From Propionibacterium cyclohexanicum (GTDB lineage Bacteria; Actinomycetota; Actinomycetes; Propionibacteriales; Propionibacteriaceae): DNA of 64,000 nucleotides. The stretch is from positions 1 through 64,000 of the forward strand of contig NZ_FOGZ01000004.1 of assembly GCF_900111365.1 (NCBI RefSeq). The letters are read 5' to 3'. The notes under the pieces are model-generated. The model saw nothing but the letters and a program-made list of their open reading frames with translations, made no database searches and was not told the DNA's origin. The position numbers and the translations under genes are program-made. Positions 17,071-22,475 of the stretch are shown piece after piece; the first letter of the stretch is position 1, and every line of letters begins with the position of its first letter.

Positions 17071-19011
17071 TCAGTCGCCGGGCCGGTACGAGGCGGTGCC
17101 TGCATCCGAAGGGACGGCTGCGGATGTGTCGCGGGGTCGCACAGCGATGGCCATCTCGGTGACCGAGCGGGCAATCTGCTGGTCGGTCAGACCCAGCTCA
17201 TCGAGCAGCTGAGAGCGGCTGGCCACGGGCAGATACTCCTGCGGCACCCCGAACTGCCGCATCGGCACATCCACCCCGGCGGCGCTCATCGCCTGCTGCA
17301 GGTGCGAGCCGAGCCCCTCGACGACCAGACCGTCCTCAATGGTCACGACCAGGCCGAAGCCGGAGGCCAGCTTCACGAGCGTCGGGTTGACCGGGAGGGC
17401 CCATACCGGGTCGGCGACCGTAACACCCAGGCCCTGGCGGGCCAGTCGCTCGGCGGTCCTCAGTGCCATCCCCGCCATCGCCCCGTAACCGATCACCAGG
17501 ACATCGCGCGAGTTGTCGCGGCGCAGCAGGTCGATGCCGTCCTGGCAAGCCACCGCGGCAATGGGAGAGGGCAGCTTCCCTTTGCTGTAGCGGATCAGCG
17601 TTGGCGCGTCATCGATTTCTACCGCCTCCACCAGGGCATCGCTGAGTCGCTGGGCGTCACGCGGGGCGGCATACCGAAGGCCCGGGACGATACCGGCCAG
17701 GCAGGCATCCCACACCCCATCGTGGCTGGGGCCGTCGGGCCCGGTGATCCCTGCGCGGTCGAGGACGAAGGTGACGCCCAGCCGGTGCATGCCGACGTCG
17801 AGCAGCAGCTGGTCGAAGGCACGGTTGAGGAAGGTGGAGTAGACGGCGAAGACCGGATGAAGCCCGGCCCGCGCCATGCCTGCGCAGGAGGCAACGGCAT
17901 GCTGTTCGGCAATGCCGACATCGAAGACACGCTCGGGATAGGCCGCAGCGAAGCGGGTCAGTCCCACCGGATGGAGCATCGCCGCCGTGACACCCACCAC
18001 GCGAGGGTGATCGGCGCCGATGTCGACCATGTCCTGGGCGAAGGCGTCGGTCCATGTGGCTTTCACCTCTGCCTGGATCGGCTCACCGGTGATGGCATTG
18101 ATCTGGCCGATGGCGTGGAAGCGGTCCTCCTCGTGGTTCTCGGCGAGGGGGAATCCTTTGCCCTTCACCGTGATGGCATGCACGATCACCGGCCCGCCGA
18201 AGCCTTTGGCCTGGTTCAGCGCGGTGACCAGGGCATTGAGATCGTGGCCGTCAATGGGACCGATGTACTTCAACCCGAGATCGGAGAACAGGCCTTGGGG
18301 GGCCAGCACGTCCTTGAGACCAATCTTGAGACCGTGCAAGAGCTCGTAGGCCTGACGCCCGAAAAGCGGGGCACGGCTCACCGAGGCCTTGATGAGGTCG
18401 AGCGTCTTCTCATAGCGGGGGTCGGTACGAAAACCGGACAACTGCTCGGACAGTCCACCGACAGTGGGGGCGTAGGAGCGCCCGTTGTCGTTGACGACGA
18501 TGACCATTCGCAGATCGGGTTCCACCGCGATGTTGTTGAGCGCCTCCCAGGTCATCCCCCCGGTGAGGGCACCGTCGCCGACCACGGTCACCACCGTGCG
18601 ATCGCTCTGCCCGGTGAGCCGGAAGCCCCTGGCCATTCCTTCCGACCAGCTCAGGCCTGTGGAGGCGTGGGAGTTCTCGACCCAGTCATGCTCCGACTCG
18701 GTGCGATTCGGATAGCCGGTCAGCCCGTCCTTCTGACGCAGTGTGGTGAACTGCCCGGCCCGGCCGGTGAGGATCTTGTGGACATAGCTCTGGTGCCCCG
18801 TGTCGAAGACGATCGGATCGTGGGGAGAATCGAAGACCAAGTGGATTGCCATGGTCAGCTCGACCACGCCCAGATTCGGGCCAAGATGCCCGCCGGTGCG
18901 CGCCACATTCGTGATGAGAAAGCGGCGGATCTCCTTGGCAAGGACGCGGCGATCACGCGGCGTCAGTGCTTTGAGGTCTGCCGGCCCATTGATCCCGTCC
19001 AGGAGCGCCAT
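17071..19011 (-). CDS. dxs: 1-deoxy-D-xylulose-5-phosphate synthase
   Basis: TPP enzyme joining pyruvate and glyceraldehyde-3-phosphate, the first step of the MEP isoprenoid pathway. The 646-residue protein shows GGHLGPNLGVVELT (substrate histidine), the TPP motif GDGALTGGMTWEALNN and the transketolase half with DRAGITGPDGPSHDGVWD. ATG 19011 has TAAACT 7 bp upstream, matching other leaderless starts here; the in-frame extension to 19080 overlaps the SOS-box gene and is not conserved. Confidence 0.95.
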   Translation of the reverse strand: MALLDGINGPADLKALTPRDRRVLAKEIRRFLITNVARTGGHLGPNLGVVELTMAIHLVFDSPHDPIVFDTGHQSYVHKILTGRAGQFTTLRQKDGLTGYPNRTESEHDWVENSHASTGLSWSEGMARGFRLTGQSDRTVVTVVGDGALTGGMTWEALNNIAVEPDLRMVIVVNDNGRSYAPTVGGLSEQLSGFRTDPRYEKTLDLIKASVSRAPLFGRQAYELLHGLKIGLKDVLAPQGLFSDLGLKYIGPIDGHDLNALVTALNQAKGFGGPVIVHAITVKGKGFPLAENHEEDRFHAIGQINAITGEPIQAEVKATWTDAFAQDMVDIGADHPRVVGVTAAMLHPVGLTRFAAAYPERVFDVGIAEQHAVASCAGMARAGLHPVFAVYSTFLNRAFDQLLLDVGMHRLGVTFVLDRAGITGPDGPSHDGVWDACLAGIVPGLRYAAPRDAQRLSDALVEAVEIDDAPTLIRYSKGKLPSPIAAVACQDGIDLLRRDNSRDVLVIGYGAMAGMALRTAERLARQGLGVTVADPVWALPVNPTLVKLASGFGLVVTIEDGLVVEGLGSHLQQAMSAAGVDVPMRQFGVPQEYLPVASRSQLLDELGLTDQQIARSVTEMAIAVRPRDTSAAVPSDAGTASYRPGD

Positions 19012-19057: not shown

Positions 19058-19570
19058 CTACAACCGCCGGACGAAGACATTGCCGCGCAGCGCCTCTTCG
19101 ATCAGCGCCACTGCCCGGCGCAGACGCACAAGCCGTGCCTCCTCGCGCTGGAGCATGTCAACGGCAGCGTCGAGAACCTCCAGGCTCACCACATCGGCCA
19201 GGCCGGTGCGGGCCCCGGCCAGGGCCTCCCGGGTGGAGCGGATCTGCCCCTCGACATGGTCGGCCGCGAAACGCGCCAGCACTAGCGGCTGGCGCCGCAG
19301 CAGTGGATAGCCGCGATAGTCGGGAGGGCAGCAATTCAGCAGGAAGGCCACCGCGTCGGGCTCCATCCGATCGGTCCCGGGAGGCGCCACCCTGTCGGGC
19401 CAGCCGGGCGGCAGATAGCTGCCCTGCGAGTCACGGCTGTCCGCATTGGCGGCCGAGCGGCTCCTTGTACGAACCCCGCTACCGGCATGGCCCGCCGCGT
19501 CGAGGCCCCACACCCGATGCCCACCATGGCGGCGCGTGGAAGACGCATCTGCTGCTGAAACCGTGCTCAT
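19058..19570 (-). CDS. Conserved actinobacterial protein of unknown function behind a LexA box
   Basis: The 170-residue product has a disordered basic N-terminus (1-68). A conserved-looking helical domain follows from about residue 69: MEPDAVAFLLNCCPPDYRGY, then DHVEGQIRSTREALAGARTG and DMLQREEARLVRLRRAVALI. The C-terminal half reads as two long amphipathic helices with coiled-coil character. No enzyme motif, signal peptide or membrane helix is present. ATG 19570 follows AGGTGAG. A perfect 16-bp LexA operator lies 49 bp upstream, so it is probably induced by DNA damage. I recall similar proteins in other actinobacteria but no assigned function. A shorter product from ATG 19366 would keep the conserved part. 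Confidence 0.75.
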   Translation of the reverse strand: MSTVSAADASSTRRHGGHRVWGLDAAGHAGSGVRTRSRSAANADSRDSQGSYLPPGWPDRVAPPGTDRMEPDAVAFLLNCCPPDYRGYPLLRRQPLVLARFAADHVEGQIRSTREALAGARTGLADVVSLEVLDAAVDMLQREEARLVRLRRAVALIEEALRGNVFVRRL

Positions 19571-19619
19571 GGAACTCACCTGCCATCTGTGTCAGTGAGC
19601 CGGTGGGAAAGACCCGGCA

Positions 19620-19635
19620 TCGAACCTGTGTTCGA
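19620..19635 (-). promoter_or_regulatory. LexA (SOS) box
   Basis: TCGAACctgtGTTCGA is a perfect inverted repeat matching the Gram-positive/actinobacterial LexA consensus (CGAAC-N4-GTTCG). It lies 49 bp before ATG 19570. It is also about 88 bp beyond the 3' end of acnA, so only the 19570 gene is a sensible target. Confidence 0.8.
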
Positions 19636-19722
19636 TAAATCCAGTGTGCATCGCGACACTGACAGGAACGAAGGCCGGGCCGCCCATCCGACAGCAGAGA
19701 ACAGGACCGGAGCCCGAGAAGA

Positions 19723-22395
<2,673 letters not shown>

Positions 22396-22475
22396 TGAAT
22401 CCCTCTCCTGGAATCGTGGTTGCAGGGGCGGACTGCCGACCAACCGCGATGCCATCACCTGTCTCGCCCGGGAAT

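Follow-up and report, generated by a model that had tools for sequence, protein, structure and literature searches.

A conserved LexA operator precedes an uncharacterised actinobacterial gene whose probable SOS control is limited to some clades

In the 64,000-nucleotide stretch of Propionibacterium cyclohexanicum DNA analysed here (the window), an uncharacterised minus-strand gene is preceded by a perfect LexA operator that recurs ahead of its homologues, and we consider it to be a LexA-repressed SOS gene, with a probability of roughly 0.88 as judged from sequence; it very probably has a genuine place in the way bacteria respond to DNA damage, though one that has yet to be studied. The 16-mer TCGAACCTGTGTTCGA (Table 1) has no mismatch to TCGAAC-N4-GTTCGA (TCGAACNNNNGTTCGA), is the sole exact match to this pattern in the window and leaves 49 nt to the ATG at 19570 on the minus strand, in agreement with the first-pass annotation, which had described a flawless SOS operator 49 bp ahead of a 170-residue gene. 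Base composition alone predicts 0.0019 perfect operators per 64 kb and 0.084 per genome, and the window holds nine sites with up to two mismatches to TCGAACNNNNGTTCGA, against 2.38 expected from shuffles. A perfect match is by itself no proof, since the genome also has a perfect site inside an ORF; the proof comes from conservation.

Table 1. Features of the studied locus (positions in the window).
Feature	Position	Strand	Remarks
LexA operator (SOS box), TCGAACCTGTGTTCGA	19620..19635	.	two perfect inverted half sites, 4-nt centre
PafBC/RecA-NDp-type element, CTGTCAGTG-N8-CACACT	19643..19665	-	stops 7 nt short of the LexA box
Second TGTCAGTG	19590..19597	+	opposite orientation, between LexA box and ATG
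Uncharacterised gene	19058..19570	-	170 aa from ATG; no Pfam/NCBIfam family
Conserved core, residues 52-170	19061..19417	-	PPGWPxxVxPP strap, FLLDxCPxxYR, LRRxPxVLAR, C-terminal RxVxLxEEALRG
Variable N-terminal extension	19418..19570	-	predicted disordered; missing in many orthologues
dxs (1-deoxy-D-xylulose-5-phosphate synthase)	17071..19011	-	Pfam; downstream of the gene
acnA (aconitase)	19723..22458	-	Pfam; upstream neighbour, same strand

The gene was found in 24 of 57 genomes in a search of relatives and in 14 of 396 genomes of a phylum sample (own genome included in both), and, among named genomes, the best 80 of 375 relatives were kept, a selection that favours near relatives. The resulting 117 loci, 106 of them distinct by core DNA, were scored over one fixed upstream interval. 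A perfect box was present at 52 of the distinct loci, a box with one mismatch at 21 and with two at 13, so that 86/106 carry a box with at most two mismatches; the other 20, with three or more, include nine Streptomyces-type homologues. At the same threshold, control intervals gave 0/105 (downstream) and 3/95 (far upstream). The 4-nt centres and the flanks of the boxes vary from locus to locus, and recent shared ancestry therefore does not explain the conservation. A chance palindrome is ruled out by the conservation before homologues together with the controls, and a tRNA remnant, considered because TTCGA resembles a T-loop, was discarded as no tRNA was found there. The persistence of the box ahead of orthologues was the check that the first-pass annotation had itself named as capable of refuting the claim, and it strongly supports the proposed LexA control, making that claim much stronger than a single palindrome would. 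Five plasmid-collection records (Nonomuraea, Embleya, Streptomyces) carry the gene as well, one with a one-mismatch box, three with a two-mismatch box (65 nt upstream in one case) and one with none.

The same operator type is found at expected members of the regulon in this genome. Perfect sites number three genome-wide (the studied gene, the upstream region of lexA and the one inside an ORF), and sites with at most one mismatch number 18, compared with 10 for the reversed control pattern; about half of the latter class is thus expected by chance, and a lone site of this kind is weak evidence. lexA has a second box, with one mismatch, besides its perfect one; recA and ruvC have an upstream box with one mismatch each, and a DUF6504-dnaE2-dinB cluster has a one-mismatch box at C27:78155-78170. 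The pattern used here, which we take to be the actinobacterial LexA consensus, agrees with the boxes before lexA, recA and ruvC. LexA (TIGR00498) and RecA exceed their NCBIfam cut-offs, as RuvC and the DUF6504 protein do in Pfam, and the genome thus encodes a LexA of matching specificity, given the boxes before lexA itself. For the two polymerases of the cluster, the best models are error-prone polymerase and DNA polymerase IV, whose cut-offs they do not reach; the cut-offs they do exceed belong to TIGR00594 (polymerase III alpha superfamily) and NF002677 (polymerase IV). We read the boxed cluster (L145 6156-11409, G000:C27:78155-83408) as a translesion polymerase cluster. Divergent from lexA, and with a common upstream region containing the perfect SOS box, lies a one-helix protein with no Pfam match (L120 752-1438), presumably DivS/ChiZ-like by position only.

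On the far side of the operator from the gene we identified an element resembling that of the PafBC system. The RecA-NDp motif is given as tTGTCRgtg-8nt-TannnT in PMC5656591 and the PafBC motif as TGTCRG-10N-TA-3N-T in PMC8151990; against the latter, the window reads TGTCAG-N10-CACACT, with a single mismatch in the -10-like part, which begins with C where the printed consensus has T. The window and five other loci (L002, L011, L019, L025 and L026) show the form YTGTCRGTG-N8-CANACT, whose end lies 5-10 nt short of the box. Genome-wide, there are four occurrences of the pattern TGTCAGTG-N9-ANNNT, against none for the reversed control, and an exact match to the PafBC-type pattern was also observed directly before a dnaX-like ORF with Pfam DNA polymerase III gamma/tau domains (L137 1501-1522). 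Both PafB and PafC appear to be present, as adjacent WYL-domain genes at G000:C28:126954-128155, one of them with Pfam HTH_PafC. Genes under both systems, including recA, are described in PMC8223512, and in mycobacterial recA a PafBC-dependent P1 is combined with a LexA-dependent P2 (PMC5656591). The studied locus is similar in having a RecA-NDp/PafBC-type element and a LexA box in one upstream region, but differs from mycobacterial recA in that they lie 7 nt apart, seemingly within one promoter, and in the C of the -10-like part. A simple scan for a sigma-70-like promoter at the locus yielded no passing candidate. A different arrangement is seen in 33 of the 86 distinct boxed loci, where the final T of a -10-like TAnnnT hexamer doubles as the opening T of the box, and LexA would therefore cover the start site there.

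We propose that LexA bound at the operator would cover the start region of the minus-strand promoter and that, upon damage, RecA loaded on single strands would promote LexA self-cleavage, thereby freeing the promoter. The PafBC-type element would add a RecA-independent activation in the clade of the window, as in mycobacterial recA. The transcript would carry the small gene and possibly dxs. Its product would be a soluble, all-helical protein, with a conserved head (WP...PP strap, CPxxYR, LRRHPxVLAR and EALRG) and a variable hairpin tip.

The protein could be assigned to no family: as the first-pass annotation had it, this is a gene of unknown function with no known SOS domain, and Pfam, NCBIfam, PHROGs and PADLOC gave the window protein no family. 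An alternative start (GTG 19579) would give 173 aa. The conserved core comprises about 119 residues, and many orthologues have only 120-140 aa in total. Predicted models reach a mean pLDDT of 79 for the full length and 92.5 for the core (107 and 106 residues, respectively, at or above 90), with helices at residues 69-80, 83-87, 89-93, 95-124 and 130-161, arranged as a helical hairpin that bears a short head of helices; the two long helices of the first-pass annotation are thus recovered in these models. Its basic, disordered N-terminus fared differently. Disorder is indeed predicted, with a block-mean pLDDT of 40-46 over the N-terminal 50 residues, but the extension is absent from many orthologues, and the conserved core has almost no net charge (median +1 over the 72 rows of alignment A2). 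The disordered extension is not a family feature; being peculiar to this gene and some relatives, it should not carry a functional argument. A short AGGSxR-like stretch recurs, by eye, in the extension of the window protein and of L002, L003, L007 and L011. DNA binding by the core is likewise unsupported, its net charge being near zero. The head (residues 52-104 and 145-163) is the best conserved part, and the hairpin tip (105-144) is less so; we infer from the models a protein-binding module. Inspection of the window protein sequence and of the helical model revealed no evident transmembrane segment.

Pfam over 24 members returned eight families with one or two members each, taken as noise (ThcOx was the best, E 0.0031, in one member; RecX_HTH2 had E 0.013, in two members), and PHROGs over 24 members 12 families, again with one or two members each (best E 0.028). 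Distant members had no match in Pfam (six scanned) or NCBIfam (five scanned). Homology of the window protein to ImuA', ImuB or DnaE2 was not found in NCBIfam up to E=1, in a library that includes ImuA' and error-prone polymerase models matched by other proteins. The best PDB hits were at E 0.48 by sequence and at Foldseek E 1.0 and 0.95 by fold, and the best BFVD hit at E 0.39. Superposition on an Smc coiled coil with VIA-align (Z 8.1 with 90 residues at rmsd 4.6; Z 8.0 with 87 residues at rmsd 5.4) was at the level of a common arrangement, and the fold searches as a whole turned up nothing beyond generic arrangements of helices. A defence gene was rejected, as the window protein had no PADLOC match; among 61 members, DrmD (E 0.0034) and SIR2 (E 0.075) were each matched by one. 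A phage or plasmid gene was rejected too, the search of phage records giving no match at E 0.001 and that of the plasmid collection the five records above; one viral contig (L173 5001-5387) encodes a weak relative with 32% identity (E 1e-5). Literature searches for the gene and for LexA work in relatives, a coverage outside which most subscription papers lie, retrieved nothing on the gene.

The family extends well beyond the loci with a box. A class-wide profile search found it in 155 of 394 genomes and in 58 of 122 genera, and 40 distant loci, picked to spread over families and genera, were scored together with 25 of the 30 loci returned by the search. Of the 98 proteins in a tree, 59 come with a box (two mismatches allowed) and 39 with none at that threshold. 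The boxed members belong to the family of the window (f1, 19/21; Propionibacteriaceae, from contigs it has in common with named loci), to a Nocardioidaceae-like family (f3, 19/19), to a Nonomuraea-containing one (f89, 18/18), to f110 (1/1) and to f9 (2/3), and the boxless ones are 36 members spread over 20 other family groups (0/36 boxed), two f1 loci (L008 and L174) and one f9 member; the names of f3, f89 and the Streptomyces-like f6, which is among the 20 boxless groups, are drawn from named loci or plasmid-collection records in which the sequences or boxes are identical. The trait changes at least six times on the protein tree, in which gains and losses are indistinguishable because it has a midpoint root and weak branches (few columns; 48 of 95 inner branches open). 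LexA scored above the cut-off in 30/30 genomes checked, 27 of them boxless at the studied gene, and in 28/30 the 600 nt ahead of the lexA match contain a box with at most one mismatch. Since lexA keeps its own box in boxless lineages, the absence of the box is a real wiring difference and not an altered LexA specificity; SOS control of the family is, on this evidence from sequence, a clade trait, and with 39 of 98 homologues boxless it is not a general requirement for the protein. The three f1 genomes with no LexA match above the cut-off (G006, G016 and G030) all lack the gene (p=0.05).

The Streptomyces-type homologues (f6, including an S. chartreusis plasmid copy) illustrate this difference. 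They belong to the same protein family and form one branch on the tree (5/9 f6 loci used), but, unlike the window, show a LexA box in 0/9 loci; an RpiR-family regulator lies upstream in 9/9 and an ANTAR protein downstream in 4/9 (Pfam, one member each).

The neighbourhood raises the question of whether the operator serves dxs, SOS induction then raising isoprenoid precursor supply and the small gene being a leader or passenger. The gene stop is followed after 46 nt by the chosen start codon of dxs, on the same strand and with no terminator-like site between, so co-transcription in the window is possible. With neighbour ORFs called by our own GC3-based rule, which is approximate, 55 of 93 loci have an acnA ORF and 78 a dxs ORF, the latter at most 300 nt away and on the same strand in 60/78. 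Nevertheless, in the 16 gene-less relatives compared, a set without those of f2, f4 and G013, the 700 nt ahead of dxs contain no box with zero or one mismatch; one of the 16, L154, has a two-mismatch box at -47 before dxs. Near the gene in the 18 f89 loci no acnA or dxs ORF was detected, and a dxs ORF was found in just 1/15 of the f3 loci examined (about 3.3 kb each); all of these loci are boxed, and the box persisting in f89 in this way indicates that it follows the studied gene. The protein itself is, moreover, conserved across the class. Control aimed at dxs is, in our view, quite improbable; the box belongs to the studied gene, with which dxs may be co-transcribed in the window. In three gene-less loci (L156, L157 and L158, from G006, G030 and G016), the frame upstream of dxs ends, by eye, in an aconitase C-terminus. 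An RNase_T-type exonuclease is encoded in six f89 loci (L222, L225, L226, L229, L231 and L232; Pfam on L226).

What the protein does is far less constrained than its regulation. The first-pass annotation had suggested a new checkpoint or repair factor, for which neither fold nor domain gives a lead; the neighbours do not settle the role, and the family also exists with no SOS control in many lineages, a clade limitation that now constrains any functional claim. SOS regulons usually hold a checkpoint-type effector, and a small, predicted soluble protein with no recognised catalytic domain could halt cell division or replication. The SOS division inhibitors DivS, ChiZ, YneA and SosA are membrane proteins; the studied protein is like them in being small and, judging from the box, under LexA, but it has no evident membrane helix and is predicted to be soluble and all-helical. 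The place of DivS/ChiZ is, in addition, already taken in this genome by the one-helix protein divergent from lexA, and the boxless homologues in many lineages also speak against a checkpoint, which we regard as rather unlikely. An accessory role in repair or translesion synthesis, with DnaE2/DinB or another repair enzyme, would agree with the presence, in f1, of a DnaE2 orthologue (at least 47% identity) in 13/20 gene-bearing against 3/13 gene-less genomes (p=0.03, uncorrected for kinship), with a LigD-polymerase-like ORF, recognised by eye, a few genes away in 26/93 loci, and with the exonuclease family near the gene in 6/18 f89 loci (Pfam on one member). However, 7/20 gene-bearing f1 genomes lack that DnaE2 type, the single DnaE2-search match of G002 is DnaE1-like, and neighbours vary between families with no repair gene as a constant partner; such a role seems unlikely to us.

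The repeated changes of LexA control on the tree, together with the acnA-gene-dxs order in boxless families (f79, f81, f97 and f99, for example), would also suit a regulator of general rather than damage-specific function that is linked to the acnA-dxs region and has come under LexA only in some clades. Against this, the gene is kept in f89 and f6 loci in which acnA and dxs were not found, and we know of no biochemical link between the gene and acnA-dxs; we regard this reading, like a checkpoint, as rather unlikely. We put first, with considerable doubt, a partner-binding damage-response modulator, the checkpoint, repair accessory and general regulator readings being close behind and the readings overlapping: the conserved head may bind a partner protein and adjust its activity during damage recovery, a proposal we make only tentatively. 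Combining partner binding with the distribution of the box, the family might be a core damage-response effector that entered, or was kept in, the LexA regulon separately in several families (that of the window, Propionibacteriaceae by named loci; the Nocardioidaceae-like f3; the Nonomuraea-containing one; and others), with LexA plus PafBC wiring in the clade of the window and a helical head acting on a protein partner; we hold this picture to be somewhat less likely than not.

The studied gene shares the operator type at its promoter with actinobacterial LexA genes such as recA, lexA and dnaE2 (S. venezuelae regulon, PMC9380542), and differs from them in encoding a protein devoid of known repair, recombination or polymerase domains; the main text of that paper contains no mention of aconit-, dxs or RpiR. 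Outside model bacteria, many SOS genes have yet to be described. This one, which lacks any described domain, has a perfect box that places it beside lexA, recA, ruvC and the dnaE2 cluster, and three well-sampled families conserve that box; the gene offers itself as a candidate for a novel function in the damage response. Because related lineages keep LexA yet differ in the box, the family lends itself to studying how genes are recruited into the SOS regulon and lost from it.
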